Assembly: GCA_024278555.1 (NCBI GenBank)
Contig: JAJRSX010000110.1
Coordinates: forward strand, 1-29,539
Origin: a bacterium
GTDB taxonomy: Bacteria > CG2-30-53-67 > CG2-30-70-394
DNA length: 29,539 nt
Direction: 5' to 3'
Shown here: positions 6,019-25,907 of the stretch, in pieces
How positions within the stretch are numbered: position 1 is the first letter of the stretch
How the letters are laid out: each line of letters starts with the position of its first letter
The notes under the pieces: generated by a model
What the model saw: only the letters and a program-made list of their open reading frames with translations
Told to the model about the DNA's origin: nothing
Databases searched by the model: none
Position numbers and translations under genes: made by a program

Positions 6019-6066
6019 GGGTCGCCTCGCTCGCCGCCTTATCGGTGAGCCACGCAGGGGACAAAA

Positions 6067-6093
6067 CCACGAAGGACACGAAGACCACGAAGG
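6067..6093. repeat. Three tandem 9-bp units (CCACGAAGG type)
   Basis: CCACGAAGG, ACACGAAGA and CCACGAAGG follow each other without spacers in the gap between the ATPase and platform genes. Short periodic tracts of this kind recur in intergenic DNA of many environmental bacteria. A second tract of three 9-bp units with different sequence lies at 22238-22264. Confidence 0.7.
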
Positions 6094-6103
6094 GCGGGCC
6101 CCC

Positions 6104-6190
6104 GGTAGGAGGGGGCCATGCCCCCGACCCCGGCCCGGAGGGCCGGCCGGCGCCACCGGCGCCGGATCGCGGGTGCAACCCGCTCCTACC
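6104..6190. repeat. REPIN-like pair of inverted REP elements
   Basis: On the plus strand the element opens with GGTAGGAGGGGGCC and ends with CCCGCTCCTACC. The two REP-like units are therefore head to head, each with its own stem (GGGGGC..GCCCCC, and GCGGGTTGCACCCGC on the opposite strand) and a palindromic GC-rich centre. This is the layout of REPINs, which are mobilised by RAYT transposases (TnpA_REP family) encoded elsewhere. The element lies between the minus-strand ATPase and platform genes and may form an mRNA hairpin there. It occupies most of the non-coding stretch 6019-6255; the rest of that stretch shows no gene. Confidence 0.75.
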
Positions 6191-6255
6191 GGTGTGCCCG
6201 GCCACGGCGGTGAGCCAACTCTGGCGTGCATGGCGCGGCGGTCACCACGCGGTGG

Positions 6256-7962
6256 TCATGTAACTCGGGCCACCTCTTCCAACGTCGTCACCCCCACCAT
6301 CGCCTTCTGGATCCCGTCCTGCCTGCACAGGGCCATACCGTTGGCCACCGCGGCGGCCTGGATCTCGGCGCTGCTTGCCTGCTTGTGGACCATCTCACGG
6401 ATGGCGTCGTCGACCACCAGGACCTCGAAGATCGCCGCCCGGCCGCGGTAGCCGCTCTGGTGGCAGGCGTCGCAGCCGGTGCCGCGAAAGAAGGGGAGGC
6501 CGAAGGCCTCGGCCATCCCCAACCGGGTGAGCTCCGCCTCGGAGTAGTCGACCGGCGCGGAGCACCGATTGCAGACCTTGCGCACCAGCCGCTGGGCGAT
6601 CACCGCGTTTACCGACGACGCCACCAGGTAGGGGGCGATCCCCATGTCGATCATCCGGGGCAGGGCTCCGGCGGCGTTGTTGGTGTGCAGGGACGACAGG
6701 ACGAGGTGGCCGGTGAGGGCCGCGCGCACCCCCAGCTCGGCGGTCTCGTGGTCGCGCATCTCCCCCACCAGGATCACGTCCGGGTCCTGCCGCAATAGCG
6801 CCCGGAGGCCGGCGGCGAAGGTCATGCCGGCGGCGGGGTTCACCTGGGTCTGGCGGATGATCGGCAGGCGGTACTCCACCGGATCTTCGAGGGTGAAGAT
6901 CGACCGGTCCATCGAGTTCAACGCCGATAGGGCGGTGTAGAGGGTGGTGGACTTGCCCGAGCCGGTGGGGCCGGTGACCAGGAGGACCCCGTTGGACCTG
7001 GCGATCAAGCCCTGGAAGAGGTTGAGGTGGTCGGGGGAGAAGCCGAGCTCCTCCACGGAGAGGACGACCCCCGACTGGTCGAGGATGCGGATGACCACGT
7101 TCTCCCCGTGGATCGTGGGGAGGGTGGAGAGGCGCAGATCGACCTCGCGATCCCCAACCTGGATGCCGATGCGACCGTCCTGGGGCACACGGGTCTCGGC
7201 GATATTGAGATCGGCGAGGATCTTCAGCCGCGCCACCACCGCACGCGCCAGGCGGACGGGGAGGACCGCGGTCTGGCGCAGCATCCCGTCGAGGCGCAGG
7301 CGCACCCGCAGCACCCGCTCCTCGGGCTCGATATGGATGTCGGTGGCCCGCTCGTCGATGGCGTCGCGCAGAAGCTGATCCACGAGGCGGATCAGCGGGG
7401 TGTCCTGCCCCTGCTCCACCGCCGCGGCGTCGTCGTCGAGGTGGGCGAGGACCTCCTCGGTGATCTGCTCCAGGGAGGCGGTGTGGCGCTGGTAGGAGCG
7501 ATCGATCGCCTGGTCGATCTCCTGACGCGACGCCCCCACCACCTCGACCTCCACGCCGGCAACACGCTCCACCTCGTCCACCGCCACCACGTCAAAGGTG
7601 TCGGCCATCGCCACCTGCAGGACGCCCTCCTGCAGGGCGATGGGGATCAGGTGGTGGCGGCGGGCGATCTCCTCGGGAACGCAGGCAACCGCCTCGGCGT
7701 CGATGACGATGAACTCCAGACGCACCCGGCGGCTTCCCGCCTCATCCGCCAGCACCGCCTCGACCACCTCCTCGGCGACAAAACCGAGGTCGACCAAGAC
7801 CTTGCCGAGGAGCTCGCCGGTGCGCTGTTGCTCGCGCAGGGCGACGTCGAGCTGGGTGCGGCTGAGGTGGCCGGCGACCACCAGCCGCTCGCCGAGGGGG
7901 AGGGGCCGACCCCCGGCAGCAGGGGCGGGCGACGAAGGTGCGGCGGTCGGCTGGTTGCTCAT
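6256..7962 (-). CDS. mshE: Pilus assembly ATPase, MshE/PilB/GspE family, with MshEN-like N domain
   Basis: The protein has 568 residues; the ATG is preceded by GAGGTGAG. Residues about 21-75 carry two consecutive repeats, PLGERLVVAGHLSRTQLDVA (22-41, extending to LREQ) and LLGKVLVDLGFVAEEVVEAV (51-70). They match the LGxxLVxxG...L..AL..Q pattern of MshEN c-di-GMP-binding domains, although the leading Arg of the first motif is not in register. The ATPase core has Walker A GPTGSGKST (331-339), Walker B with Asp box DPDVILVGEMRD, and His box LHTNNAAGALPRMIDMG. A tetracysteine zinc site is formed by Cys464, 467, 497 and 500 (CNRC, CDAC). This is an extension-type ATPase; no PilT-like retraction gene is visible. 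A repeat-filled gap separates it from the platform gene, but strand and role argue for one operon. Confidence 0.95.
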   Translation of the reverse strand: MSNQPTAAPSSPAPAAGGRPLPLGERLVVAGHLSRTQLDVALREQQRTGELLGKVLVDLGFVAEEVVEAVLADEAGSRRVRLEFIVIDAEAVACVPEEIARRHHLIPIALQEGVLQVAMADTFDVVAVDEVERVAGVEVEVVGASRQEIDQAIDRSYQRHTASLEQITEEVLAHLDDDAAAVEQGQDTPLIRLVDQLLRDAIDERATDIHIEPEERVLRVRLRLDGMLRQTAVLPVRLARAVVARLKILADLNIAETRVPQDGRIGIQVGDREVDLRLSTLPTIHGENVVIRILDQSGVVLSVEELGFSPDHLNLFQGLIARSNGVLLVTGPTGSGKSTTLYTALSALNSMDRSIFTLEDPVEYRLPIIRQTQVNPAAGMTFAAGLRALLRQDPDVILVGEMRDHETAELGVRAALTGHLVLSSLHTNNAAGALPRMIDMGIAPYLVASSVNAVIAQRLVRKVCNRCSAPVDYSEAELTRLGMAEAFGLPFFRGTGCDACHQSGYRGRAAIFEVLVVDDAIREMVHKQASSAEIQAAAVANGMALCRQDGIQKAMVGVTTLEEVARVT

Positions 7963-7997
7963 GAGGAGCTCACCTCATCCGACGCGGGCCTCGCCGC

Positions 7998-8042
7998 CCC
8001 AAACGGAAGCCGCCCCAAGATCGCGGCGGACTGCCGTTTGGG
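7998..8042 (-). repeat. Large imperfect hairpin between prepilin and ATPase genes
   Basis: Arms CCCAAACGG and CCGTTTGGG (9 bp, perfect) enclose a second imperfect stem GCCGCC/GGCGG around CAAGATCG. It lies in the 128-bp gap after the prepilin stop and before the ATPase start, next to a REP element. In the transcript it would form a stable structure that could terminate or stabilise the abundant upstream prepilin message. No U-tract follows on the minus strand, so simple intrinsic termination is not supported. Confidence 0.65.
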
Positions 8043-8060
8043 TTTACAGGCGCATCCCAC

Positions 8061-8091
8061 GGTTGAATCGCGGGCACGGCCCGCTCCTGCC
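8061..8091 (-). repeat. REP-like element abutting the prepilin stop codon
   Basis: Read on the minus strand this is GGCAGGAGCGGGCC, then GTGCCCGCGATTC, with stem GCGGGC/GCCCGC. It shares the head (GG[T/C]AGGAGC) and the ATTC/ATC-type tail with the units at 6104-6190 and 27907-27931. Its first base belongs to the TAG stop of the prepilin gene. Confidence 0.7.
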
Positions 8092-8657
8092 TATTGGATA
8101 CGGAAACCGATGTCGTCGCCGGCCAGCAGCGAGCCGCGCGAGGTCTGGAGGATCCCATCGGGGCCGGCGGAGACGACATAGACCGGGGTGGTCGATCCAG
8201 CGGAGAGGTTACCCACGTTGCACAGGTAGGCGTGATCCCACGGGTCCGCCTTGAACTCCGTCTGATAGGGGCCGTCCCATTTCACCTCGCCACTGGTGGA
8301 GTAGCTCGGGGCATTGGTGATGAGCTGGTCCTTCAACAGATCGGTAGTGCCGGTCCAGCCGGTCACCCCGCTCGCCACCGACGGCGCGGAGCCGTTCTCG
8401 GTCGTCAGATAGACAATGTCGTTGGTGCCGTCGGTCGTCGGCCACCGGCCGAGGTCCTTATAGAAGCTCGCCATGGCCGAGGCGATCTCCTTGCAGTCGC
8501 TCCGGGCCCGGGCGATCCGCGAGTCACGGATGTTCTTGACGATCGACGGGGTGGCGATCCCCGCGAGGACGGCGATCACCGCGATCACGATGATGATCTC
8601 GATGAGGGTGAAGCCGGCGGTCAGCGGTGTACGGCGGTGGGCATCGAATTTCTTCAT
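8091..8657 (-). CDS. Type IV prepilin-like protein, GspG-type
   Basis: The protein has 188 residues. A 15-residue basic leader (MKKFDAHRRTPLTAG) ends at a class III processing site G|FTLIE with Glu at mature position 5, followed by the hydrophobic helix IIIVIAVIAVLAGIATPS. The C-terminal part has WDGPY and KADPWDHAYLCN, the region that forms the calcium-binding loop in GspG pseudopilins, and ends in a beta strand with GPDGILQTS and DDIGFRI. Length is slightly above GspG (about 140). A strong AGGAG lies 7 bases before ATG, overlapping the previous stop, so it should be well translated. It is either the main pseudopilin or a pilus subunit; which of the two prepilins here is the major one cannot be told from sequence. 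Confidence 0.9.
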   Translation of the reverse strand: MKKFDAHRRTPLTAGFTLIEIIIVIAVIAVLAGIATPSIVKNIRDSRIARARSDCKEIASAMASFYKDLGRWPTTDGTNDIVYLTTENGSAPSVASGVTGWTGTTDLLKDQLITNAPSYSTSGEVKWDGPYQTEFKADPWDHAYLCNVGNLSAGSTTPVYVVSAGPDGILQTSRGSLLAGDDIGFRIQ

Positions 8658-8668
8658 CTCGCACTCCT

Positions 8669-8947
8669 TCAGCTACCTGCACTGGCCGCCACATGGGTCG
8701 TGTTGGCCACGGTTGTGGGGAATCCCCCGATGACTTGTTCCACGCCGGCGAGTCGGTCTGCGACGCGCTGCTGCTCCCCCTCCAGACCGGCCACCTGCGC
8801 CGTGGCACGCGCCACCCCCCATCCCATGACCACCACGGTCACCAGACTCGCCGCGAGCAAGAGGAGCCCGGTACGGAGGCGAACCGGCGGTGCCGGTGGG
8901 TGGGCGGAGACAAATGGGACATTCATGGCATCGATTGCGCTTGGCAC
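8669..8947 (-). CDS. Small bitopic membrane protein of the pilus operon
   Basis: The 92 residues run from a GTG start 6 bases after the HDOD gene; an in-frame ATG at 8926 is an alternative giving 85 residues. A Pro-rich cytoplasmic N-terminus (AHPPAPPVRLR) precedes one transmembrane helix (about 28-45, LLLLAASLVTVVVMGWGV). After it comes a short coiled-coil-like stretch (VAGLEGEQQRVADRLAGVEQ) and an Ala/Ser/Thr-rich end. This topology recalls minimal PilN/PilO-like assembly proteins, but no family is recognised. The stop overlaps the ribosome site of the next prepilin gene, so it is clearly embedded in the operon. Confidence 0.7.
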   Translation of the reverse strand: MPSAIDAMNVPFVSAHPPAPPVRLRTGLLLLAASLVTVVVMGWGVARATAQVAGLEGEQQRVADRLAGVEQVIGGFPTTVANTTHVAASAGS

Positions 8948-8953
8948 CTTTAC

Positions 8954-9793
8954 CTACATCGGTACCCCTTCTGTTTGACTCAAGCTTTTGTCGACCACCT
9001 CCCGGAGCCCCTCCAGGTCGACCGCGTCGTCGAAGAGGGCCAGGGCCGCGCTGCCGTCCCACCCCGCCGGCGGCGGCAGGGGGGCGAGGCCGCGCTCACC
9101 ACAGAGACCGTCGGCGAGGGTGACGCAGGCCGCCAGACGGGAGACCGGGGCCCCCTCCTCGGCCACCCGCTCGAGGCAATGGACCGCGCCGACCACCGCC
9201 ACGAGCGTCTCGGGCAGGGACCAGTGGAGGACCACCGCCGCCCCGGCATCGCCGTGGTCGAAGCCGAAGCGGGTCCGCTCCGCGGCCGCCAGGGCATCGA
9301 CATCCGACACGCCCTCCACCAGGGCGGTGTAACCGGCCTCGTCGGCGCGCAACAGGAGGACCATGCCGAGGTCGTGCAGCAGGCCGGCGGCCATGGCGTC
9401 CTCCACCGAGACCCTGCCGACGCTCTTGGCGATCGCCCCGGACGCCTGGGCGACCGCGTTGGCGTGGTCCCACAGGGCGCGGGTGAGGCCGGCGAACTCG
9501 CCGTAGACGCCGCGGGTGGAGAGCGCCACCACCAGGTTGCGCACCGCGTGGAAGCCGAGGGTCATCACCGCCGCCTCAACACTCCCGACCTGGCCGCGGC
9601 GGCCGTAGAAGGGGGAGTTGGCGACCCGCAGGAGCTGCGCCACCAGGGTGGGATCGCGGGCGATCACCGCGGCGATCTGCTCGGCCCCCGCCATCGGGTC
9701 GGCCATCGCCGCCATCAACTCGGTGACCACCGGCGGTGCCGAGGGGATGTCACAGCTTCCGGCGATCAGGGTGTCCAGGGTTGGGGTGCTCAC
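8954..9793 (-). CDS. HDOD-domain signalling protein
   Basis: The 279-residue protein starts at GTG with GAGGAGATT well placed upstream. The HDOD domain spans about residues 10-200. It shows IPSAPPVVTELMAAMADP near the start, IARDPTLVAQLLRVANSPFY, a central WDHANAVAQASGAIAK helix, GLLHDLGMVLL, and FGFDHGDAGAAVVLHWSLPE followed by a late His in AVHCLE. HDOD proteins are relatives of HD phosphohydrolases that usually lack complete catalytic residues and act in signalling, chemotaxis or c-di-GMP networks. Here some His/Asp pairs (HDLG) remain, so catalysis is neither shown nor excluded. It lies between the first prepilin and the small membrane protein, an unusual place for such a regulator. A link to control of the pilus machine is inferred from position. 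Confidence 0.9.
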   Translation of the reverse strand: MSTPTLDTLIAGSCDIPSAPPVVTELMAAMADPMAGAEQIAAVIARDPTLVAQLLRVANSPFYGRRGQVGSVEAAVMTLGFHAVRNLVVALSTRGVYGEFAGLTRALWDHANAVAQASGAIAKSVGRVSVEDAMAAGLLHDLGMVLLLRADEAGYTALVEGVSDVDALAAAERTRFGFDHGDAGAAVVLHWSLPETLVAVVGAVHCLERVAEEGAPVSRLAACVTLADGLCGERGLAPLPPPAGWDGSAALALFDDAVDLEGLREVVDKSLSQTEGVPM

Positions 9794-9831
9794 AGTCTCA
9801 ATCTCCTCAGGGGGTTGTCGTCCAGGTTTGA

Positions 9832-10701
9832 TCAGTCGTCGTGGTGGCCGCCGTCGCCGTCGTCGCCGCCACCGCCGCCGCCACCGCCGCCACCGCCGCC
9901 ACCGCCGCTGCCCGGCAGGTAGATCGCCGCGGTCGGCGACTGGGTGGTGGTCACCACCTCGCGGCCGGAGTAGTCGCCATCGGAGCCTCCGTCGCGTCCC
10001 ACGACCCGGATCGCGTGGACGCCGATGGGGAGGTCGCTCCCGGTGGGGGTGCGGAAGGCGTGGTCGGACCAGGTGAGCTCCACCGACGCCTCGTTGCCGC
10101 CGTTGGAATAATAGGCGTAGACCCGGGCGGTGTTGTCGTCGAGGGTGACCGCGTGGCCGGGGTCCAGGGCGCTGTCCGCCTCCACCACCACCGAGTAGGG
10201 GCGGTGGGTGGGGATCGCCGTCTCCGGCAGGGTGATGTCGTCGCTGGTTCCGCTGGTGCCGTCGCGACCGGGGCTGGTGAGCTGGCCGGTGGAGGCGTTG
10301 TAGATATAGTTGTGGCCCCAGGCGTCGGTGAGCCAGCTCCCGTCGGCGAAGCCGCCCACCAGGTACGGCCCCTCCCACCCCATGCCGACACCGCCGAGGA
10401 GGAGTCCGTAACCGGGCTGGCTCCCCTGCTGCACCAGGTCGGTGATCGAGGCGGGGAGCTGCCCCATGTCTGCGAGATAGCCGTCGTCGCCGCGGTCCGG
10501 GGTGCCGACCATCGCCCGGTAGAGGGCCTGCATCTCCTCTCGGGTCGCGGCCGCCCGGCGGTGGTCCATCTGGCTCACCACGCTCGGCACCATGGTACCG
10601 GCGAGGATCGAGATCACCGCGATCACCACGATGATCTCGATCAAGGTAAAGCCGGCGGGGCCCCCGGCACCGTGTCTCCCCTGGAGATGGACAAGGTTCA
10701 T
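9832..10701 (-). CDS. GspG-like prepilin with extra C-terminal domain and Gly14-Asp/His tail
   Basis: The ATG at 10701 is preferred over an upstream GTG (10719) because GAAGGGG lies 3 bases before it; this gives 289 residues. A 17-residue leader ends in G|FTLIE with Glu5, followed by IIVVIAVISILAGTMVPS. The first half is GspG-like (WEGPYLVGG, TDAWGHNYIYN, SPGRDGTSGTSDDITLP). Unlike ordinary GspG it continues for about 130 residues as a predicted beta-rich domain (YSVVVEADSAL ... VELTWSDHAF ... GVHAIRVVGRDGG). It then ends in LPGS, fourteen glycines and DDGDGGHHDD. It is the first gene of the pilus operon. The surface-exposed C-terminus suggests an adhesive or metal-binding subunit; this is inference. 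Confidence 0.88.
   Translation of the reverse strand: MNLVHLQGRHGAGGPAGFTLIEIIVVIAVISILAGTMVPSVVSQMDHRRAAATREEMQALYRAMVGTPDRGDDGYLADMGQLPASITDLVQQGSQPGYGLLLGGVGMGWEGPYLVGGFADGSWLTDAWGHNYIYNASTGQLTSPGRDGTSGTSDDITLPETAIPTHRPYSVVVEADSALDPGHAVTLDDNTARVYAYYSNGGNEASVELTWSDHAFRTPTGSDLPIGVHAIRVVGRDGGSDGDYSGREVVTTTQSPTAAIYLPGSGGGGGGGGGGGGGGDDGDGGHHDD
9865..9906 (-). repeat. Glycine codon tract built from 9-bp units
   Basis: Fourteen consecutive glycine codons are arranged mainly as repeats of GGT GGC GGC (read on the minus strand). The tract encodes the flexible linker before the Asp/His tail of the prepilin. Slippage by multiples of 3 or 9 would change linker length without a frameshift. Confidence 0.85.
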
Positions 10702-10792
10702 GACCCCTTCAATCGGCACGGCCGGGGCAGGTCATGACGTCGCCCGTTGGGCCAGGAGGTACCGACAACCTGTTCGCTCCGTTCCACACCTA

Positions 10793-11235: not shown

Positions 11236-11293
11236 AGCGCGTCTCCGGGATAGGCAGTCTTCGGATGACACGCGAACCGAGAGGAGCTCGACC

Positions 11294-14200
11294 ATGGCGC
11301 TGACGACCGAGGTGGTGATCATCGGGGCGGGGCCCGCGGGGGTGGCGGCGGCGGCGACCCTGGCGCGGGCGGGGGTGGAGGTGGTGGTCCTCGAGGGGGG
11401 ACGCCACCCGGGGGCGGAGAACTGGTCCGGCGCCGTCTACTTTTGTGAGAACCTGGCGGCCGACGACTGTTTCGGCGCCGACATTCTCGACCGCGCGCCG
11501 GTGGAGCGGCCGCTCTTTCGCCGCGGCCTCCTGATGACCGACGGCGTCGGCCTCACCGGGATGGCGCCGGAGGGGAGCGACCTCTTCCGCCACTGCGTCA
11601 CCGTCCAGAGGCCGCTCTTCGACCGCTACCTCGCCGAGCAGGCCGAGGGGCTCGGCGCCACCGTCCTCTCCGGCTGCCACGCCACCGCCCTGTTGCGCGA
11701 AGGGGGCAGGGTGGTCGGGGTGATGACCGACCAGGGGCCGGTCTACGGCGAGTGCTGCTTCCTCGCCGAGGGCGACGCCTCCCACCTGGTGACCCGCGAG
11801 GGGTACGAGGAGGTGGAGACGCCCCACTTCGCCCAGGGGGTGAAGGCGGTCCTGCGCCTGGACGCGGCGGAGATCGAGCGCCGCTTTCACCTCGCCCCGA
11901 ACCAGGGGGCGGCCTACGAGATCCTCCTGCGCAACCCGATCCTCGGCGGCCGCACCGCACGCCTCAACGCCGGCTGCTTCCTCTACACCAACCGCGACTC
12001 CCTGGCCCTGGGCTATGTCCTGCCGCTGGAGGCGGCGGGCGAGCAGTGGCGCGGTAACCACCACCAGCTCCTCGAACACATCCGCGCCCTGCCGGCCCTC
12101 GCCCCGTGGCTAGAGGGGAGCGAGCTCGCCGGCTTCGGCGCCAAGCTGATCCGCATCGGCGGGGTGGCCGAGAGCCCGCGCCTGGTGGACGACGGTCTGG
12201 CCATCGGCGGCGCCGCCACCGGCATCGGCGTCGACTTCCCCTGTCCCAACTTCACCGGCCCGGCCACCTTCATGGGGCTGACCTTCGCCCGCGCGGTGAT
12301 CGCCGCCCGCACCGCCGGCGAGGAGCTCGACACGGCGATACTCGAGCGCCGCTACGCCGAGCCGGTGCGCGCCTCCTCCTACGGCCGCGACGCTCGCTGG
12401 CTCACCCGCTGGCCCGGCTTCATCGAGGCCAACCGCACCTTCTTCTCCACCCCCATCGACTGGACCCTGCGCGGCGGTGCGCTCCTCGCCGAGCGCAACC
12501 TCCCCCTGAGCCAACGCCTGTGGGGGCTCGGCCGCTGCTTCGAGGAGCTGGCGGCGCCGAAGCGGATGGCGCGGGTGGTGGGGGAGCAGATCGACGCGGC
12601 CCGCGCCCTGCACCTCGGCCGCGCCGTACTCCGCGGCCCCGCCTGGCACCACCCCCTGCGGTGGCTGACCAACCTCCTGCCCGGCAGCGATGAGGAGGTC
12701 CCCGGCCAGGTCGTCTACCACCCCGCCGGCGTCGACGGGCCGCCGCCGGCGGGCGGTCGCCGCGGCCGGCGGCTCGCCGGCATCATGGCCGCCCTGGCGC
12801 GCCTCTACACCAACGACCAAGAGCCGTTGGAGCGCAAGCTCCCGGCGGCGGCAGGCGCGCTCTTCGACCACCTCTCGCTCCTCGACCTCCTCCTCCTCGC
12901 CGTCGCCCCGGTCGCGGCGTGGGGGATCGCGGTGGCGCGGCTCGCCTCCGACGGGGTGCGCTACAAGCTCCTCCACGTCGACCTCGACACCCTGTGGGGC
13001 GACCCGGCGAGCCGCCTCAAGCGGGGGCGCGAGAGCGCGCTCACCGTCGACCCGGCCACCGCCCCCGAGACCACCGGCTGGCCGGAGAAGATGGCGACCC
13101 TCGACCACGACCCAACCACCGCCCACATGCGCCTCTTCTGGCCGCCGGTGGGCGACACCGAGGCCGGCGAGCGGTTCCTCGACGCGCCGGTGTGGCGCCT
13201 CTGCCCGGTGCGGGTCTACGAGCGCGAGGCCACCTGGGTGGGCCAACCGCGGGTGGCGGTGAGCTCTGAGAACTGCCTCAAGTGCGAGTCGTGCTGGCGC
13301 GCCGACTCTACTGTCGACTGGTCGCGCACCCGCCACCACGTCACCTATCCCATCCTCGGCGAGGTGGCGGCCCGCTGGGCCCGGGAGCGCACCCCAACGC
13401 CGCCGCGGCCCCTCCACCCGCCGCGGCCTCACAACCGGCCGGCGCCCGCCTGGATCGGCGCCCTCGGCGAGGGGGTCGGGCCGCAGGTGCGCGACCGCCT
13501 CACCGCCGTACGCCTCGCCTGCAACGCCTACCACCAGCGGCTGGAGCAGACCCCACGGGTGGTCGACGGCCCCGCCCTGGCCGCCCTGGGTGAGGCGGTG
13601 GAGCGGGTGGCCCGCGCCTGGGAGGAGGTGGAGCACCCCCTCGCCCACACCGCCGCCGGGCCATGGCTCGCCCGCGGCCGCGACTGGGTCGAGCTCGCCG
13701 CCCACCACCTCGAAGGCCGCCACCTCTTCTGGGCGGAGAGCGACCTCGACTGCCTCTGCGAACACCACCTCGCCCCGGCGCTGACCGCCCTCCCCGGCCG
13801 CCGCCGGCCGCCCCTGCCGCCCCCCTCCCCCTTCCCCGGCGACCTCGACCCGCCGGAGTCGGTGGCCGCCCTGCGCGCCTCCCTCGACCTCGCCACCCGC
13901 AAGGGGCTGGAGGCAGGCGAGACGGAGGCGTCCGCCTGGGTAACGGCGCAGGCGGCGCCCCTGGCCGCGGCCACCCCGGAGGAGGTCGTCCACACGGTCG
14001 CCGCCCTGGAGCCCGGCCTCGCCTGGGCGATCGCCTCCCACCACCTCGCCGTGGCCCTGTGGGGTGACGCACCCACCCCGTGGCCGGCGGGGAGCTGGCT
14101 CACCATCGCCGGTGAGGCGGAGACGGAGCTGGCGATCGACGGCGACACCGCGACCCTGACGGTCCACGGTCGCGGCGTCGCCACCGCCCTGGCCACCTGG

Positions 14201-17200
14201 GTGGTGGTCACAACCGAGAGGGGGGTGGCCTGCTTCCCCCTCGCCAACGCCGAGGTGGTGCCGACGGCGACGGTGGGGGTACGCGCCGCCCGCCTCGCCG
14301 AGGTCCGCCTCCCCCCGACTCTGTTGTCCGGCGAGCGGCTCTACCGCGACCGGGGCGACCCCCACAGCGGGGCGCGATGCGCCGCCATCGCCTGCGCCTT
14401 CGCCGCCGGCTTCGGCGGCTACCTGACCGCCCGGGCGCGGGAGTACGCCGCCGGCCGGGTCCAGTTCGGCGACGCCTTCCGCGACCGCGAGGGGCGCACC
14501 GGGGTCGACAAGTTCGGCGCGGTGAAGGGGCTGATCGCCGACTGCGACGGCCGCCTCGCGGCCCTCGGGGCGCTGGCCCGCGCCAACGGCGAGGGCGCGA
14601 TCGACCCGGCGGCGGCCCTCGCCTACGCGGTGGAGTCGCTCACCCCAAACCGCGGCGCCTTCGCCTACAACGCCGGCCAGGCCTTCGGCGGCACCGCCTA
14701 CTCGGAGGACGACCTGCTGGCCAAGTACTACCGCGACGCCGCCACCCTGCGCCTCCTCTGGGAGGGGGTGCGGCCCACCCCGGATCCCACCCCACCTCTC
14801 CTGCCGCCGGAGCTGGACGACCCAGCCTACGCCGCCGCCCGCACCCGCTGGGACTCCCTGGCGTCGCGCGTCCACCCCTTCCTCGCCGACTCCCCCGGCG
14901 ACTCCGCCTCCCTCCTCGCCGGCTACACCACCGCCGCCGCGGCCCTGCTCCTCGAGTGGCGGCTGCATCTGCTGGCAGGCGTCGACTCCCTCCACCGGGA
15001 GGCGGTGGAGTGGCACCTACGGTGCGGCGAGGCGGCCCTGGCCGCCCTGCGCGAGGAGAGCCCCGACCTCAGCGGCGCGCCGCACCTCTTGCGCGCCCCG
15101 TTCACCGAGGTGGAGGCGGTGACCCCCTTCGCGGAGCTGATGGCCCGGGACGCCACCTACGCCTCCGCCGACTTCCTCACCCGCCCGGCGGACGACCTGC
15201 CCCTCCTCACCCCGGAGGCGGTGTGGTGCGACGAGACCCGGCGCGGCCGGTGGGAGACCATCCACACGGCGCTCGCCGACCTCCTCGCCGGCCACCCGGG
15301 CGACTACGCCCGCACCCTCGACGCGAGCCACCACCTCCCGGATGAGGACGTGGCGTGGTTCGCGGCGCGCGACTGGTACGCCACCATCGTCCCGGAGGCC
15401 CTCGGCGGGCTGGGGTGGAAGAAGGCGGACTACGCCCTGCTGAACTGGCAGGTGATGACCGAGGTCGACCCGTCGGTCTCCCTGCTGATCATGGCCAACA
15501 CCTCCATCGGCACCACCCCGGTGCTCCTGGGGCTGGAGCGGGAGCTCCCCGCGGCGGAGGGGGAGCTGAGCCAGGCGGCGAGCGAGCCGGCACGCCTCGC
15601 CGAGCTCGGCGATTCCCTCGCCCACCTCGTCGACGCCCTCGCCCACCCGGACCCGGCGAAGCTGACCCGCGACACCAAGGCGCTGGTCGCCCTGGTGGAC
15701 GAGCGGCTGCGCCACACGAAGGTGTTGAAGTACCTCGCCGGTGACCTCCTCATGGCCTTCTACGGCGGCGCCCAGGCAGGGAGGCGGCGCGACCTCGCCG
15801 GCTTCGCCGCCGGCCTCAAGCAGGCGCAGGCCCTCCTGCCCCCGCTGGCCGGGCGGATCGACGCGGCCCTCGCCGAGATCGACCTCCAGCGCGCTGCCCA
15901 CCTCCGCTACCTCCAGGGGCTCGCCTGCGGCCGCGTCGCCTGCTTCGCCCTCACCGAGCCCACCGCCGGCTCCGACTCCGGCGGCGTCACCACCCACGCC
16001 ACGATGGTGGAGTACGAGGTCCACGAGGAGGAGGACGGCCGCCTCTGGTTCGAGGTCGACGGGCAGCGGCGCAACCTCGCCGACGCCGCGCGGCTGCGCT
16101 TCGAGGACCACACGGTCCTCTACGAATACCGCCCGGGCCGGGTCGCCCCCCTGGAGCTCACCCACCCGGCCGACAGCGGCCCGGCGACCCCGCGGCGCTA
16201 CGACCACGATGGCACGCCGGTGGAGCTCTTCGACTGCGCGGCGGTGCGGAGGCGTGACGACGGCACCCCCTTCGTCCGCTTTTTTGAGGTGACCGGCGCC
16301 AAGATGTGGATCACCAACGGCCGCGTCGCCCACCAGATGGCCCTCTACTGCAAAACCGAGGCGGGGGTGAGCGGCCTGATGGTCGACCGCTTCGCCGAGG
16401 GGCTGGTGGTCGGCAGCGACGAGTCGAAGCTCGGCCAGTGCGCCTCGCCCACCAACGAGCTCTCCCTCAACCGGGTGCGGGTGCCGGCGGAGAACCTCAT
16501 CGGCTTCGCCGGCCACGGCCAGGTGAACGCCCTGGAGACCCTGAATGCCGGCCGCATGGGGCTGGCGGTGGCCTCCGCGGCGATGACCGCCCACCTCACC
16601 CGCTGGCTGGAGCGGTGGCTCGCCGGCCACCCGGACCGCCGCACCACCGCCGCGACCCGCTGCCTCGAACGGATGGCGGCGGAGGCGATCTGTAGCGAGT
16701 CGGTGGCCTTCTTCTGCATGGGGCTCTTCGACCACCACGGGGTGAAGAGCGCCCGCATGGAGTCGGCGGTGGCGAAGTTCTTCTGCTCCGAGTCGCTCCA
16801 CCGCGCCATCGACTTCGCCGAGCGCGCCCTGGGGGTCGACTCGGCGACCACCGCCTGGCCGGTGGAGAAGATGCGCCGCGACGCCCGGGTCCTGAACATC
16901 TACGAGGGGACCAACGAGGTGCAGCGCTTCCTGATCATCAAGGAGCTCACCCAGCTCGCCCGCGCCGGCAAGCTCGGCGAGGTGGCGCTGCCCGACGGCG
17001 CCGCATGGGGGCTGTGGGGGGAGGACCGCGCCACCCTCGCCGCGGCGCTCACCCGCGCGGTCGAGGCGGTGGGCGACGCCCTGTGGAACGACGGCGACCT
17101 GCAGCCGTGGTCCTTCGTGGCGGTGGAGATGGCCGCCAACCTCCTGGTCCGCTACGGACTCCTGCACCGCCTCGACCAGTGTCTCGCTGCCTCCGGTGCC

Positions 17201-19192
17201 TCCGACTTCACCCATCTCTTAGAGGCGGTGGAGCGGGAGCAGCAGCACGCCTTTGTCCGCCTCCAGCGCCGCTTCGAGGGGGAGGAGCGGTGGTGCACGG
17301 ACCACGCCCTGCCCCTGGCCACCTGCCTCTTCGAGCAGGCGGCCGCGGCCGCGGTGCCCGCGCCGCCCTTTGGGGCCGACCGCCGCCTCACCGTGGCGGT
17401 GGTGGCGGAGCGCACCCCCCACCTGCCGCCGCAGCCGAGGGTCGACGGCGACGGGGTACTCCTCCCGGACCGGGAGCTCGACCCGACCGTCGTCGATTGC
17501 CTCGCCCAGGTGGCGCGGTGGCGAGGGCAGGGGGTCTCGGTGCAGGCCGTCGCCCTCGCCGTCGGGGACGAGCACGCGGTGCGCGCCGCCCTGGCCGCCG
17601 GCTGTGGCCGCGCCACCCTGGTGGAGGCGGCCTCGCCCGCGAGCGAGGCGGCGTGGGCCGCGGCCCTGGCCGACACCCTCGCGGCGATGGAGGCGCCCCC
17701 CGATCTGATCGTCGTCCCCGAGGTGGGCGGCGCCACCGCCACCCCCCATCGGGCGGCGCTGCTGGCCGGCGCCCTGGCCCGGCGCGAGCGGCCGTGGCCC
17801 TACCTCGGAGGGGTGGTGGCGGGTGGGCCGCGCCTGGCCGGCGACGCAACGACCTGGCGGTGGCAACGGAGTGAAGGGTTCACCACCGCCCCGGCCGAGA
17901 CCCCTCTGGTGGTCGGCTGGAGCGGCAGCGGTCGTCGCCCGCGCGGCTCGGTGACCGCCCTCGGCCGCGCCTGGCGGGCGCGCCCGGCGCGGCTGACAGC
18001 GGAGCGCGATACCGCCCTGTCGGTGGCCTACCGGCCACCGTCGGTCGTCGCCCGCGGCGACCTCGACACCGCCCGCACCGCCGAGGCGGCCGCCGAGCTC
18101 ATCCGCACCCACGCCGCCGCCTGGGGGGTGGCGGCCGCCGCCCCGGCGCCGCGGTTTGCCGGTGGCCCGAGCGACGAGAGCCCCCCCTCCTTCACCGACC
18201 TCCCGTGGGTGGTGGCGGCGGAGAGCGCGGCCCTGCCCCTGGAGGAGGGCGCGATCGCCCGCGCCGCCGCCGCCGCCCGCGGCTGCTTCGGCGGCGAGGT
18301 GGCCGCCCTCTACCTCACCGACCTCGACGGCGAAGCGCTCGCCCGCCGCCTCAGCCGCTGGCAGGAGGCGGGGGTGGGGCGGGTGGTGGTCCTCCAGGCA
18401 CCGGCCGGACCGTGGCCGGCACCGCAGCTCGCCGCCTGGCTCGCCCCCGTCCTCGACCCGCCGCACATCGAGGGGGGGAGGTGGCTCGTGGAGGGCTCGA
18501 TCGGCGAGGCGGCCGCCTACCTCGGCGGCCTCGCGCCACCCGCCGGCGGCGTGCTCATCGGCGGCCTCCGCACCGGCGCGGGGGTGGTGCGACCGCTGGC
18601 CGGCGGGCGGCTGGAGGCGGTCCTCTCCGGCGAGACACCGCCGCTGGTCTCTCTCGATGCCGCCGAGGACGGGGTGGCGGCCGACTCCCTCGTCTGGTGG
18701 CAAAAGCGGCTACCGCCGGGGGGCCGTCGCGAGGGGTGGTGGGAGCCGCTCATCCCGCACCCGGTGGACCGGTCGCGGCTCACCGAGGCGCCGGTGATCA
18801 TCGACGTGGGCTACGGCGTGGACGACGCCGCCGGGATGAAGCGGGTGGTGCCTCTGCTGGAGGAGGCCCTGGCGACCGCCGGCCTCGGGCCGATCGCGAT
18901 CGGCGCCACCCGCAAGGTCACCCAGGATCTGAAGCTCCTGCCGGTTGCCGCCCAAATCGGCCAGACCGGCATCTCCGTGCGCCCCAAGCTACTCCTGGCC
19001 CTCGGCGTCTCCGGGGCGCCCCAGCACATGGACTGGATCGACCCCGGCGCCACCATCCTCGCCTTCAACCGCGACCCCCACGCCCCGATCATGCACTGGA
19101 ACGAGAGCCACCCCGGCCCCACCGTCCACCCGATCGAGGGCGACCTCTTCGACACCGTCCCCGCCTTCTGCGCCGCCCTGCAGACCGGATAG
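11294..19192 (+). CDS. Giant flavoprotein fusion: ETF-QO + two acyl-CoA dehydrogenase-like regions + ETF beta + ETF alpha
   Basis: A single 2632-codon frame starts at ATG with GAGAGGAG 7 bases upstream. Residues 1-690 are ETF:quinone oxidoreductase/FixC-like: FAD motif GAGPAG (11-16) and 4Fe-4S ligands Cys637 and NCLKCESC (Cys661, 664, 667), plus a hydrophobic stretch near 528-550. Residues about 700-1165 are a divergent acyl-CoA dehydrogenase (ALEPGLAWAIASHHLAVAL, YAAGRVQFGDAF, ending LLWEGV with Glu1157). Residues about 1180-1900 are a canonical acyl-CoA dehydrogenase (ALTEPTAGSDSGG from 1552, KMWITNG, IYEGTNEVQR with catalytic-type Glu1871). A helical linker reaches about 2025. ETF beta-like sequence (about 2026-2240) and ETF alpha-like sequence (about 2300-2632) follow; the latter has the FAD region QIGQTG (2554-2559), ALGVSGAPQH and AFNRDPHAPI. 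Electrons from acyl-CoA would thus pass to quinone within one protein at the inner membrane. Substrate is unknown. Confidence 0.93.
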   Translation: MALTTEVVIIGAGPAGVAAAATLARAGVEVVVLEGGRHPGAENWSGAVYFCENLAADDCFGADILDRAPVERPLFRRGLLMTDGVGLTGMAPEGSDLFRHCVTVQRPLFDRYLAEQAEGLGATVLSGCHATALLREGGRVVGVMTDQGPVYGECCFLAEGDASHLVTREGYEEVETPHFAQGVKAVLRLDAAEIERRFHLAPNQGAAYEILLRNPILGGRTARLNAGCFLYTNRDSLALGYVLPLEAAGEQWRGNHHQLLEHIRALPALAPWLEGSELAGFGAKLIRIGGVAESPRLVDDGLAIGGAATGIGVDFPCPNFTGPATFMGLTFARAVIAARTAGEELDTAILERRYAEPVRASSYGRDARWLTRWPGFIEANRTFFSTPIDWTLRGGALLAERNLPLSQRLWGLGRCFEELAAPKRMARVVGEQIDAARALHLGRAVLRGPAWHHPLRWLTNLLPGSDEEVPGQVVYHPAGVDGPPPAGGRRGRRLAGIMAALARLYTNDQEPLERKLPAAAGALFDHLSLLDLLLLAVAPVAAWGIAVARLASDGVRYKLLHVDLDTLWGDPASRLKRGRESALTVDPATAPETTGWPEKMATLDHDPTTAHMRLFWPPVGDTEAGERFLDAPVWRLCPVRVYEREATWVGQPRVAVSSENCLKCESCWRADSTVDWSRTRHHVTYPILGEVAARWARERTPTPPRPLHPPRPHNRPAPAWIGALGEGVGPQVRDRLTAVRLACNAYHQRLEQTPRVVDGPALAALGEAVERVARAWEEVEHPLAHTAAGPWLARGRDWVELAAHHLEGRHLFWAESDLDCLCEHHLAPALTALPGRRRPPLPPPSPFPGDLDPPESVAALRASLDLATRKGLEAGETEASAWVTAQAAPLAAATPEEVVHTVAALEPGLAWAIASHHLAVALWGDAPTPWPAGSWLTIAGEAETELAIDGDTATLTVHGRGVATALATWVVVTTERGVACFPLANAEVVPTATVGVRAARLAEVRLPPTLLSGERLYRDRGDPHSGARCAAIACAFAAGFGGYLTARAREYAAGRVQFGDAFRDREGRTGVDKFGAVKGLIADCDGRLAALGALARANGEGAIDPAAALAYAVESLTPNRGAFAYNAGQAFGGTAYSEDDLLAKYYRDAATLRLLWEGVRPTPDPTPPLLPPELDDPAYAAARTRWDSLASRVHPFLADSPGDSASLLAGYTTAAAALLLEWRLHLLAGVDSLHREAVEWHLRCGEAALAALREESPDLSGAPHLLRAPFTEVEAVTPFAELMARDATYASADFLTRPADDLPLLTPEAVWCDETRRGRWETIHTALADLLAGHPGDYARTLDASHHLPDEDVAWFAARDWYATIVPEALGGLGWKKADYALLNWQVMTEVDPSVSLLIMANTSIGTTPVLLGLERELPAAEGELSQAASEPARLAELGDSLAHLVDALAHPDPAKLTRDTKALVALVDERLRHTKVLKYLAGDLLMAFYGGAQAGRRRDLAGFAAGLKQAQALLPPLAGRIDAALAEIDLQRAAHLRYLQGLACGRVACFALTEPTAGSDSGGVTTHATMVEYEVHEEEDGRLWFEVDGQRRNLADAARLRFEDHTVLYEYRPGRVAPLELTHPADSGPATPRRYDHDGTPVELFDCAAVRRRDDGTPFVRFFEVTGAKMWITNGRVAHQMALYCKTEAGVSGLMVDRFAEGLVVGSDESKLGQCASPTNELSLNRVRVPAENLIGFAGHGQVNALETLNAGRMGLAVASAAMTAHLTRWLERWLAGHPDRRTTAATRCLERMAAEAICSESVAFFCMGLFDHHGVKSARMESAVAKFFCSESLHRAIDFAERALGVDSATTAWPVEKMRRDARVLNIYEGTNEVQRFLIIKELTQLARAGKLGEVALPDGAAWGLWGEDRATLAAALTRAVEAVGDALWNDGDLQPWSFVAVEMAANLLVRYGLLHRLDQCLAASGASDFTHLLEAVEREQQHAFVRLQRRFEGEERWCTDHALPLATCLFEQAAAAAVPAPPFGADRRLTVAVVAERTPHLPPQPRVDGDGVLLPDRELDPTVVDCLAQVARWRGQGVSVQAVALAVGDEHAVRAALAAGCGRATLVEAASPASEAAWAAALADTLAAMEAPPDLIVVPEVGGATATPHRAALLAGALARRERPWPYLGGVVAGGPRLAGDATTWRWQRSEGFTTAPAETPLVVGWSGSGRRPRGSVTALGRAWRARPARLTAERDTALSVAYRPPSVVARGDLDTARTAEAAAELIRTHAAAWGVAAAAPAPRFAGGPSDESPPSFTDLPWVVAAESAALPLEEGAIARAAAAARGCFGGEVAALYLTDLDGEALARRLSRWQEAGVGRVVVLQAPAGPWPAPQLAAWLAPVLDPPHIEGGRWLVEGSIGEAAAYLGGLAPPAGGVLIGGLRTGAGVVRPLAGGRLEAVLSGETPPLVSLDAAEDGVAADSLVWWQKRLPPGGRREGWWEPLIPHPVDRSRLTEAPVIIDVGYGVDDAAGMKRVVPLLEEALATAGLGPIAIGATRKVTQDLKLLPVAAQIGQTGISVRPKLLLALGVSGAPQHMDWIDPGATILAFNRDPHAPIMHWNESHPGPTVHPIEGDLFDTVPAFCAALQTG

Positions 19193-22460: not shown

Positions 22461-23351
22461 CTACTTCTCGCAGATCGCCTTCATCGAGTCGGCAATGTTG
22501 CCGGGGGTGGTGATGATCTTGGTGAAGGTGGTCATGGTGAGCTCCGGCCAGTGGAGGGCGATGCGGTAGCGGCCGTGGAGGACGACCGCCTTGTTCCCCA
22601 CCACCAGGAGGTCGTAGGGCTGCGCGGCGATGTGCTTGGTGCCGATAATCGACAGGTACTTGCCCTCGTGGTCCATGGCGACGCCGTAGTCCACCACCTC
22701 CTTGCCCGGGATCTGGATCTTGTAGACCAGCTTGTTGCCGCCCTTGCCGGCGGCGAGGTTGGCGTCGATGGTGGAGACCGCCTCCTGGAAGGAGGAGAAC
22801 TTGCCCGCCTTCACCACGTCGTCAAACCGCTGCATCCCCACCATGTAGTGGTAGCGCGGCAGCTTGCTCCCCTTGATGTCGCCCCCGAACCCCTTGTCCA
22901 TGTTGCCGCCGGCGACGGTGGCGAGGGCGGCGGCGAGGCGTTTGGTGACCGTGGCGGCGAGCTGCGGGATCGCCTTCTTGCCGAAGTAGGCGCGGTGGAT
23001 GTACTCGGGGTTCTCGTAGGAGATCTCCACCTTGCCCGCCTCGTTCTTCCACAGGCCGACCCGGATGCCGGCGGCGAAGCCGGTGTTGTTACCGGTCTGG
23101 GCGATCGCCTGGAGGACCATCGGATGGGTGCAGATGACCACCATCTGGGCGTCGGGAGCGTCGCCGGGGGAGTACTTGCCGACCACCTGGAAGCCGGCGC
23201 CGCCGACCGCTGCCTCGACCTTGGCGGCGAGATCGGGCACTGCTCCCGCGACCTCTCCCACCAGCTTGTACGGGGCATACCCCGCCTCCGATGCCGTGGC
23301 CAGACCGACGGCCACCAGGGACACTGCCAACCAGCTCATGACACGACGCAT
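22461..23351 (-). CDS. Secreted protein with DUF302-like domain
   Basis: The protein has 296 residues, starting at ATG 23351 with GGAGGAGG upstream. A signal peptide (MRRVMSWLAVSLVAVGLATA, cleavage near SEA|GYAPYK) sends it to the periplasm. Residues about 30-130 resemble DUF302: KVEAAVGGAGFQVVGKYSPG, MVVICTHPMVLQAIAQTG, and a strand pair GIRVGLWKNEAGKVEISYEN. The second half (GFGGDIKGSKLPRYHYMVGM, VYKIQIPGKEVVDYGVAM, YDLLVVGNKAVVLHGRYRIA) has no family I recognise. It looks like another alpha/beta domain, and its last residues carry a single Cys (KAICEK). It is a single-gene unit with its own promoter and strong terminator, so it is probably expressed independently and well. Function unknown. 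Confidence 0.8.
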   Translation of the reverse strand: MRRVMSWLAVSLVAVGLATASEAGYAPYKLVGEVAGAVPDLAAKVEAAVGGAGFQVVGKYSPGDAPDAQMVVICTHPMVLQAIAQTGNNTGFAAGIRVGLWKNEAGKVEISYENPEYIHRAYFGKKAIPQLAATVTKRLAAALATVAGGNMDKGFGGDIKGSKLPRYHYMVGMQRFDDVVKAGKFSSFQEAVSTIDANLAAGKGGNKLVYKIQIPGKEVVDYGVAMDHEGKYLSIIGTKHIAAQPYDLLVVGNKAVVLHGRYRIALHWPELTMTTFTKIITTPGNIADSMKAICEK

Positions 23352-23380
23352 GGTGTTGCCTCCTCCGAAAGGGTGATGAT

Positions 23381-23403
23381 CGGCGTGGGACCACCCCACG
23401 CCG
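23381..23403 (-). promoter_or_regulatory. 5' hairpin of the DUF302-like mRNA
   Basis: CGGCGTGGG-GTGGT-CCCACGCCG gives a perfect 9-bp stem. With the promoter at 23411-23439 the transcript should start within a few bases of this hairpin, so it would form the very 5' end, a position known to stabilise mRNAs. Confidence 0.6.
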
Positions 23404-23465: not shown

Positions 23466-25820
23466 TTAGTACACCCAGCTCACCTGGAGATAGGCGGTGT
23501 CCTGGTTGTGGGTGATCTCGGCGTTGTCGTACTGGGAGTCGACCTTGGAGGTGCCGCCGGTCTTGAGCCCCTCCTCGAAGTCGTGCTCCCAGGCGAAGGA
23601 GAGCTTGGTGTGGGCGCCGACGTCGTAGGTGAGTCCGGCGGCCACCGTCTCGAAGCCGTAGGCGGGGAAGATCGGGGTGGCGTTGTCGGGATTCACCACG
23701 TTGTTGGCGTGGTTGTAGCCGACCCGCAGGGTGAGGTCGTCGGTCGCCTGAAAGGAGGCGCCGAGGGCGATGATGTACTGGTCGTCCCAGGCGAAGTCCT
23801 GGGCGAAGGTGAAGGAGTCGCCGCCCGAGTCCAGACCCAGGAAGGTCTCGATCACCGTGTTCGACCCCGCCCCATTCGAGCCGCCGCCGTCGATCCGCGC
23901 GGCGAACCGCTCGAAGGCGTCGGAGAAGTCGATCCAGGTGAAGTCCATGCCGAGGGTGAGGCGCTTCGTCGCCCGGATCTCCACGCCGACTCCCGCCTGC
24001 TGCGGCAGGTCGAAATCGATCTGGGTGTCCATCTTCTGCTTCACCGCGAGCTGCTGGCTCAGGGCGCCGAAGGCGGCGTTGAAGGCGTCCGCCTCGGGAA
24101 GCGAGGCGGAGACGCCGAAGCCCGCCTCCATCTGCGCCCGGAAGGCGGCGTCGGACCACGAGGCCGGGGTGAGGATGGCGCCGAGGGTGGCGGCGTCGAT
24201 CTGGATCCCCACCGCGTTGAGGAAGGCGACCTGGTCGTCGGTGGAGATCCCGCCGAAGTTCGGCACCTGGGCGATCGCGCCCGTGGAATCCTTGGCCACG
24301 TTGGCGCTCACGAAGGGGGTGGCGCCGACGCCGTCGCGGAAGCCGAGGAGGAAGGCGAACTGGTCGAGGAGGCCGTCCGCCGCGGTGGTGAGGGTGGTCA
24401 CGTCACCGGCGCCGCCGGAGATCCCGGCGTTGTCGGGCACCACGCCGGCGACGGTGGTCGGATCGGTGAAGCCGCCGAGGAGCTGGCCGATGGCGGCGCC
24501 GAGGTCCTCCTGGTCGTTGAGCTGGTTACCGTCACCGTCGGCGTCCGCGAGGCCGCCGTCGGTGTTGTAGGCGGTGGCGAGGCCCCCGAGGTTGGTGCCG
24601 AAGGCGTTGCCGATGTTGCCGAACAGGACCTGCTGCGCCATGGAGGAGCGGAAGCCGATGTTGAAGGCCTGGCGGAACTGGTCGGAGAAGTCGATCGCCA
24701 TGGTCCCGTGGTCCATGGAGATGCGCGTCTTCTGGCTGTAGTTGGCGCCGATCGCCAGCCAGTCGTTCACCTGCCAGCGCAACCCGAGCTTGGTGTTGTA
24801 GCCGAAGCCCGAGAGGCCGGACCCCTCGGCATAGCCGGCCATCTCCGAGAGGCCGAAGCCGGCGTCACCGAAGGTGGCGGCGAAGTCCGGGGTGAGGCTG
24901 CCCAACGCCGCGGCCACCGCGTTGGGGATGGCGCTCGCGTCCCCCCCCGCCGCGGCCACCGTCGCCGCGGTGAGATCACCCACCAGGGCGGGGCCGAAGG
25001 CGGCGTCACTGGCGACGCTGGAGAAGAGGTTGGCAATCCGCGTCGCCCCGTCCCCGTCGATGAGCATCTTCGGGAAGGTGGCCCCGGCGAAGAGCTGGCC
25101 GAAGGTGGTGGTGTTGCCGAACTCGCCGAACGGCTGCCCCTGGATCTGGCTGTCGGCGCCGGTGGTGGCGAAGTTGCCGTAGGTGGCGAAGCGCAGGACG
25201 CCGATGTTGAGGACCGGCGAGAGGGCCACGGTCAGGTTGGGGGTCACCTTGTAGGCGGCGGTAAAGGCGACCTTGCCCGCCTGCAGGGTGGCGTAGTTGT
25301 CGCGCCGCACCGCGTTGTCCTCGCTCAGGCCCCCGAAGCCGCCGTTGGGATCGGCGGCGTTGGTCATGAAGCTGTTGAGGCCACCCCCGAGATCCGATGG
25401 GGTGGTGTCGTTGAAGCCGAGGCCACGGTAGACGATGGCGTTGCCGCCGTTGCCCCACATCCCCGCCCCGACGACCAGGCGGCCGTTGAGCCGCCTGGCG
25501 TAGGCGAAGCCGGGGACGACGAAGTCGTGGCCCTCTTGGTACTCGAAGTAGCCGAACTCATCCGGGTTGACCCCATGGTCGTCGTAGCTCACCCGGGAGA
25601 TGAGGTAGCCGAGGCCGGCGTCGAACCGCCATGAGCCGATGCGGGTGAGGTTCGCCGGGTTGACCGCCTGGCTGAGGGCGTCGGACTCGGTGGCGTTGGC
25701 CACCCCGGCCATGCCCGCGGTCTCGCCCGAGTAACTCACCGAATAGATGGTGTTGGTCGCCTCGGCGCTGCCCACAACCACGAACAGAGCGAGGACGACG
25801 GGGATCAGGACACGCTTCAT
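23466..25820 (-). CDS. FadL-family outer-membrane transport protein, enlarged
   Basis: The 784-residue protein starts at ATG 25820 with GAGGAGGAG upstream. The signal peptide MKRVLIPVVLALFVVVGSAEA is followed by a mature N-terminus typical of FadL/TodX porins (SGETAGMAGVANATESDALS, then QAVNPANLT, the NPA motif of the hatch). Many aromatic-alternating strands follow, and the C-terminus reads TAYLQVSWVY, a beta-barrel end. FadL members carry long-chain fatty acids or hydrocarbons across the outer membrane. FadL is normally about 430-460 residues. Here an extra region of some 300 residues lies roughly between residues 390 and 600, with a calcium-type motif DADGDGNQLNDQED (426-439) and Ala/Gly/Leu-rich helices. 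Substrate unknown; a link to the acyl-CoA-oxidising fusion is plausible. Confidence 0.85.
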   Translation of the reverse strand: MKRVLIPVVLALFVVVGSAEATNTIYSVSYSGETAGMAGVANATESDALSQAVNPANLTRIGSWRFDAGLGYLISRVSYDDHGVNPDEFGYFEYQEGHDFVVPGFAYARRLNGRLVVGAGMWGNGGNAIVYRGLGFNDTTPSDLGGGLNSFMTNAADPNGGFGGLSEDNAVRRDNYATLQAGKVAFTAAYKVTPNLTVALSPVLNIGVLRFATYGNFATTGADSQIQGQPFGEFGNTTTFGQLFAGATFPKMLIDGDGATRIANLFSSVASDAAFGPALVGDLTAATVAAAGGDASAIPNAVAAALGSLTPDFAATFGDAGFGLSEMAGYAEGSGLSGFGYNTKLGLRWQVNDWLAIGANYSQKTRISMDHGTMAIDFSDQFRQAFNIGFRSSMAQQVLFGNIGNAFGTNLGGLATAYNTDGGLADADGDGNQLNDQEDLGAAIGQLLGGFTDPTTVAGVVPDNAGISGGAGDVTTLTTAADGLLDQFAFLLGFRDGVGATPFVSANVAKDSTGAIAQVPNFGGISTDDQVAFLNAVGIQIDAATLGAILTPASWSDAAFRAQMEAGFGVSASLPEADAFNAAFGALSQQLAVKQKMDTQIDFDLPQQAGVGVEIRATKRLTLGMDFTWIDFSDAFERFAARIDGGGSNGAGSNTVIETFLGLDSGGDSFTFAQDFAWDDQYIIALGASFQATDDLTLRVGYNHANNVVNPDNATPIFPAYGFETVAAGLTYDVGAHTKLSFAWEHDFEEGLKTGGTSKVDSQYDNAEITHNQDTAYLQVSWVY

Positions 25821-25878
25821 AACTCCTCCTCCGGTAGATGGATCGGGCCCCGGCCTGCCGCGGCCCGCAATGCGGCGG

Positions 25879-25907
25879 ACCGTAAGCACGGTGAGCGAAG
25901 GTGTCAA
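25879..25907 (-). promoter_or_regulatory. Sigma70-type promoter of the fadL-like gene
   Basis: TTGACA (perfect -35), 17-bp spacer, TACGGT as -10, on the minus strand 59-87 bp before the ATG. It suggests that the porin has its own transcript apart from the upstream DUF5666-like gene. Confidence 0.65.

Follow-up and report, generated by a model that had tools for sequence, protein, structure and literature searches.

A bacterial gene that appears to encode, in one chain, the parts for electron transfer from acyl-CoA to the quinone pool

Electron transfer from fatty acids to the quinone pool elsewhere uses four to six separate proteins. Many dehydrogenases reach the quinone pool through ETF, a diffusing hub whose docking has been hard to study because its encounters are transient. 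In acyl-CoA dehydrogenase (ACAD) dimers, each FAD is held by the middle and C-terminal domains of one subunit and by the RxxFG and QxxGG motifs of the partner. In classical ETF-QO (ETFDH), a single chain holds FAD together with one 4Fe-4S cluster bound by four cysteines. The FixABCX systems, including E. coli fixABCX and ydiO/ydiQRST, are made of separate proteins: EtfB/FixA, EtfA/FixB, a FixC-type QO and a FixX-type cluster protein, with a neighbouring ACAD in the ydi case. EtfD/EMO does the last part of this job, the transfer of ETF electrons to quinone at the membrane, and is built of CCG, Fer4 and membrane helices (PMC13083937). CasC of Rhodococcus jostii is a tandem ACAD whose N-terminal domain is used to bind FAD and whose C-terminal domain is the catalytic one (PMC8399759).

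The window analyzed here is an entire contig of 29,539 nucleotides from a 3.06-Mb draft genome (211 contigs, reported 100% complete). One gene of the window appears, from its domains and motifs, to encode in a single chain the parts for electron transfer from fatty acids to the quinone pool, with two of the parts degenerate. The chain order is FixC-type FAD oxidoreductase, 4Fe-4S, ACAD1, ACAD2, ETF-beta-like and ETF-alpha. The features are as follows.

11280..11286, plus strand: ribosome-binding site AGAGGAG ahead of the ATG (sequence)
11294..19192, plus strand: whole fused gene, 2632 codons and stop (open frame, GC3)
11294..12613, plus strand: FixC/YdiS-type FAD oxidoreductase domain, residues 1-440, GAGPAG at residue 11 (NCBIfam, 7koe_C, tree, pN/pS 0.30)
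12857..12937, plus strand: most hydrophobic stretch, residues 522-548, Kyte-Doolittle 2.24 (hydrophobicity scan)
13121..13363, plus strand: Fer4_ETF_QO/FixX-like 4Fe-4S domain, residues 610-690 (Pfam PF05187, 2gmh alignment, motif)
13364..13828, plus strand: linker and helical region, residues 691-845, no family detected by hhalign (conserved in the sister species, pN/pS 0.46)
13829..14788, plus strand: ACAD1, degenerate acyl-CoA dehydrogenase domain, residues 846-1165 (hhalign, motifs)
15191..16963, plus strand: ACAD2, catalytic acyl-CoA dehydrogenase domain, residues 1300-1890 (Pfam, hhalign, motifs)
16964..17383, plus strand: linker from ACAD2 to the ETF part, residues 1891-2030 (portion past 1966 conserved in the sister species)
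17384..18043, plus strand: ETF-beta-like domain, degenerate, residues 2031-2250 (hhalign, motif comparison; no Pfam match)
18044..18763, plus strand: expected ETF-alpha N-terminal region, residues 2251-2490 (position; weak alignment, barely alignable)
18764..19189, plus strand: ETF-alpha FAD domain, residues 2491-2632 (PF00766, 1efv_A, hhalign)
23466..25907, minus strand: FadL/TodX-type outer-membrane hydrophobic-compound transporter (PF03349, synteny)

The frame is open without interruption from the ATG at 11294 to the stop codon at 19190-19192, giving 2632 amino acids, and the ATG is preceded by AGAGGAG at a distance of about 8 nt. Every step of 450 nt has its highest GC at the third codon position (GC3 0.90-0.99), so the gene contains no frame break. 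A check for internal starts at the domain borders gave weak GTG candidates only (residues 140, 772, 1276, 2083, 2175, 2361 and 2399), none of them exactly at a border. The single frame and the good start given in the preliminary description are therefore confirmed, and so is its order QO-ACAD-ACAD-beta-alpha, by Pfam, NCBIfam and profile-profile alignment. Pfam and NCBIfam recognize the FAD oxidoreductase, Fer4_ETF_QO, Acyl-CoA_dh_N/M/1 on the second ACAD and ETF_alpha, but ACAD1 and the ETF-beta part are missed by Pfam and are recognized solely by profile-profile alignment (hhalign), in which every wrong domain pairing used as a control gave E of at least 0.08. Models of residues 1966-2632 and 691-1890, predicted without an alignment, have a mean pLDDT of 40 and were left out of fold searches.

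In a second species of the same genus, residues 1-840 (82% identity) and residues 1966-2632 (71% identity) are found on two different contigs, and in both cases the frame is still open where the contig stops. Its gene begins at the equivalent start, MALATEVVIIGAG, and the joins from QO to ACAD1 and from ACAD2 through ETF-beta to ETF-alpha are in frame there as well. The flanks match on both outer sides, with a pilin-like gene upstream and the genes at 22461 and 23466 and UvrD downstream. Residues 841-1965 are absent from this second assembly, so that full-length continuity rests on one assembly. This gap and the draft state of the source genome, with its 211 contigs, are what would speak for an assembly or frameshift artefact joining separate genes. 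However, GC3 has no frame break anywhere, the joins and flanking genes agree in the second species, and the only other ETF-alpha in the source genome is the canonical one. The artefact is nearly refuted, and we regard it as extremely improbable.

The N-terminal module was described at first as an ETF-QO. The four cluster cysteines of that description are present, as Cys 637, 661, 664 and 667 align with the cluster cysteines of pig ETF-QO (2gmh), but the assignment itself has to be changed: the FAD domain falls on the FixC/YdiS side and is followed by a FixX-like cluster domain, as in FixABCX. The best named families for residues 1-440 are YdiS (147 bits) and FixC (142 bits) in NCBIfam, and the best match among solved structures is FixC 7koe_C (E=4.9e-25). 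A maximum-likelihood tree of 28 rows places both fused proteins with 11 FixC proteins (100/100) and separates them from 15 classical ETF-QOs; their branch is long (2.4) and its exact position is unsure. Fer4_ETF_QO scores 19.2 and 23.1 bits on the fused protein and 25.1 bits in the genome search, close around the Pfam cut-off of 24 bits. The module resembles classical ETF-QO in having FAD and one 4Fe-4S cluster with the 2gmh cysteine pattern in one chain, but its FAD domain lies outside the ETF-QO clade and it is joined to its own electron donors. Residues 522-548 are a candidate membrane anchor or quinone-site helix.

ACAD1 and ACAD2 differ strongly in how well they are preserved. In ACAD2 the Pfam N, M and C domains are all matched (hhalign E=8e-45), while ACAD1 (residues 846-1165) has no Pfam match above the cut-off and its C-terminal domain aligns with the ACAD profile at E=1.2e-6 (hhalign). 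ACAD1 keeps RVQFG (1055), QAFGG (1129) and WEG (Glu 1157) and is without TEPxAGSD and WITNG. ACAD2 keeps TEPTAGSD (1554), WITNG (1672) and YEGT with the catalytic Glu 1871, and is without RxxFG and QxxGG. Among 60 ordinary ACADs, taken from loci fetched in the analysis, RxxFG has R in 60/60, F in 60/60 and G in 53/60; QxxGG has Q in 48 of 53 and GG in 50-51 of 53, and TEPxAGSD and WITNG are near invariant. With the partner contacts RxxFG and QxxGG on one domain and TEPxAGSD and WITNG on the other, the two carry complementary halves of one site, which suggests that they pair within the chain as a pseudo-dimer holding one FAD and one active site (Glu1871). Two ACAD domains are indeed present, as the preliminary description had it, but they are probably not two dehydrogenases. 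Some doubt on a single active site comes from Glu1157, which aligns to the catalytic place of ACAD1, although the M-domain pocket is missing; ACAD1 may hold a second, weak active site. Two ACAD domains for one FAD and active site are described for CasC and for the alpha2beta2 steroid ACADs ChsE4/5, Scd1AB and IpdE1/2 (PMC8399759), and the motifs of the fused protein are divided in that way. The likeness to CasC is one of described organization, and the account of CasC is of a fusion of two ACAD domains, in which neither an ETF nor a quinone part is mentioned. Unlike CasC, the fused protein keeps a Glu at the catalytic position of ACAD1, and its ACAD2 has two large inserts. Relative to ordinary ACADs these inserts cover residues ~1415-1537 and ~1571-1660 (15536-16273) and belong to no known family.

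In the ETF module the FAD side is the better preserved. The ETF-alpha FAD domain is over the cut-off for PF00766, matches 1efv_A at E=2.6e-12, aligns in hhalign at E=8.5e-19, and keeps GATR, GQTG (2556), SGAPQH (2573) and NRDPHAP (2592). The ETF-beta of the preliminary description probably survives as a fold, with a weak match to EtfB over residues 2060-2142 (hhalign E=1e-4) and no Pfam match, but it is degenerate: the conserved nucleotide-binding motif after DLI is lost (DLIVVPEVGGATATPHRA vs DLILCGKQAVDDNASFVGPAL), the stretch reading PPDLIVVPEVGGATATPHRAALLAG here vs DLILCGKQAVDDNASFVGPALAEF in related EtfBs. This loss bears on whether the protein could be a FixABCX-like bifurcating complex with an added ACAD pair, in which electrons of NADH or acyl-CoA would go partly to quinone and partly to a low-potential carrier. 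Since bifurcation depends on a second FAD, carried by FixA/EtfB, the loss of the motif argues against it. The FixC/FixX-type N-terminal module would fit such a complex, since FixABCX bifurcates electrons in Azotobacter (PMC5861303). We consider bifurcation very unlikely. The fused protein also differs from FixABCX and the E. coli systems in being one chain, in the order C-X-ACAD-ACAD-A-B.

Purifying selection is seen in all parts, domains and linkers alike, that the two species share: pN/pS ranges over 0.30-0.55, with the QO FAD domain at 0.30, FeS at 0.33, the linker to ACAD1 at 0.46, ETF-beta at 0.55 and the ETF-alpha FAD domain at 0.34. Identity between species is strongest at the cofactor domains (QO FAD 86%, FeS 88%, ETF-alpha FAD 84%). 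Such selection, on linkers too, argues against post-translational cleavage of the chain into ordinary separate proteins, and a free ACAD2 without RxxFG and QxxGG would still need ACAD1. Cleavage could nevertheless occur in the proline-rich linkers around residues 700-720 and 836-855. The strong degeneration of ACAD1 and ETF-beta agrees with cutting or with a related reading, in which some modules are inactive, for example with ETF-beta and ACAD1 as scaffold and the ETF module as a structural tether. Cutting or partial activity of this kind is in our judgement unlikely.

We favour, with somewhat more confidence than doubt, a membrane-associated, self-contained tethered acyl-CoA:quinone oxidoreductase with an ACAD pseudo-dimer and a tethered ETF. 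The cofactor sites of three redox modules are kept for this: GAGPAG and four Cys; TEPTAGSD, WITNG and YEGT; and the ETF-alpha FAD motifs. ACAD1 and ACAD2 would fold together into an intramolecular pseudo-dimer that has a single FAD and a single active site, to which ACAD2 supplies the catalytic Glu1871 and the flavin-ring pocket and ACAD1 supplies the partner contacts to FAD. From the reduced ACAD FAD, single electrons would move on to the FAD of the ETF module at the C terminus. The covalently tethered ETF module would then swing to the N-terminal FixC/FixX-type module (FAD and 4Fe-4S), which would reduce quinone at the membrane. We infer all of these functional steps, namely pseudo-dimer folding, membrane attachment, electron order, intramolecular transfer, acyl-CoA oxidation over reduction, and the substrate. 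What the sequence shows directly is one frame, its domains, cofactor motifs that are lost in a complementary way, and two ends that a second species conserves. Channelling at the membrane by the tethered ETF, put forward in the preliminary description, is plausible. A more specific proposal, for which we see the chances as even, is that ETF, here a tethered swinging domain instead of a diffusing carrier, docks in turn on the ACAD pseudo-dimer and on the FixC-type QO of the same chain, and that the ETF-beta nucleotide was shed because tethering makes it dispensable. If the tethered arrangement is true, tying dehydrogenase, ETF and QO together would fix their stoichiometry, the whole transfer path could be visible in one cryo-EM sample, and the protein would show how far tethered parts can decay (the ETF-beta nucleotide, half of each ACAD).

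Also encoded in the source genome are an ordinary EtfB/EtfA on another contig and a FadE-type ACAD, the latter accompanied by genes for a thiolase and a hydroxyacyl-CoA dehydrogenase (both named from sequence). An EtfD/EMO-like protein (L113 4132-6288, minus strand), which has Fer4 and two CCG domains, is present as well and is unrelated to the fused protein. In the sister genome the EtfD/EMO-like protein (L112 3062-5491, plus strand) adjoins canonical EtfBA. The sole Fer4_ETF_QO match in the source genome is the fused gene, and a classical ETF-QO of ~575-600 aa is found in 4/5 sister-class genomes searched. With canonical FadE, EtfBA and an EMO-like protein elsewhere and the sole Fer4_ETF_QO in the fused chain, the fused protein looks like a second, self-contained route parallel to FadE-EtfBA-EMO and not the only acyl-CoA route of the cell.

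The direction of electron flow cannot be read from the sequence, and the same centres could serve an anaerobic respiratory reductase, in which quinol or another donor reduces enoyl-CoA (or aryl-acryloyl-CoA). A second oxidative route is partly redundant beside the canonical one, which would fit a reductase. Quinol, however, is a poor donor for enoyl-CoA unless aided by bifurcation or membrane potential, and no such part is seen. ACAD-fold enzymes with ETFs do also act as reductases, as in Bcd-EtfAB and CarCDE (PMC5861303). Against the reductase stands the FadL/TodX-type transporter 4 kb from the fused gene, whose adjacency is conserved in the sister species and which suggests a hydrophobic acyl substrate. 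We judge the reductase unlikely and prefer the oxidative, tethered oxidoreductase. Beside the transporter gene lies a companion gene (22461-23399, minus strand), and its order next to the fused gene is kept in the sister species. A DUF6502 protein is encoded at 26998-27822 (minus strand, E=8e-97). Upstream of the fused gene, a Type II secretion/MshE-type pilus cluster (601-10719, minus strand) encodes a secretin, T2SSF, T2SSE with MshEN, and pilin-like proteins.

The architecture is real, is assembled from known parts and, within the scope of these searches, is undescribed. The rarity suspected in the preliminary description stood up in 386 genomes sampled across the domain, where no other such fusion was found, the sister species aside. 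Outside the genus, nothing in these genomes corresponds to residues 401-1650 and 1891-2490 except short, weak ACAD-like or chance matches. A peptide-pattern search of 84,980 genomes matched only the sister species, and literature searches of open-licence papers returned nothing on a fusion of the ACAD-ETF-QO kind. Fer4_ETF_QO occurs in 76 of the 386 genomes, the longest other frame being 889 aa, and ETF-alpha in 303, in frames of 282-633 aa among the matches listed. The other long ETF-QO frames (up to 889 and 832 aa) were rejected as fusions, being inside the classical ETF-QO clade; gene picking reduces the 889-aa frame to an ordinary ORF of 575 aa. In one genome (G032), a 1033-aa ACAD frame was rejected as well, since it appears to be an ordinary ACAD whose frame extends through non-coding sequence upstream; a long ACAD frame of 1458 aa is also present there. 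ACAD, EtfBA, FixC and FixX are clustered as separate genes in E. coli ydiO/ydiQRST and in one sampled genome (G038). In another (G051), a 505-aa frame is seemingly a FixC-FixX fusion, with the FAD domain and a C-terminal cluster motif, and is possibly a simpler relative of the N-terminal module.
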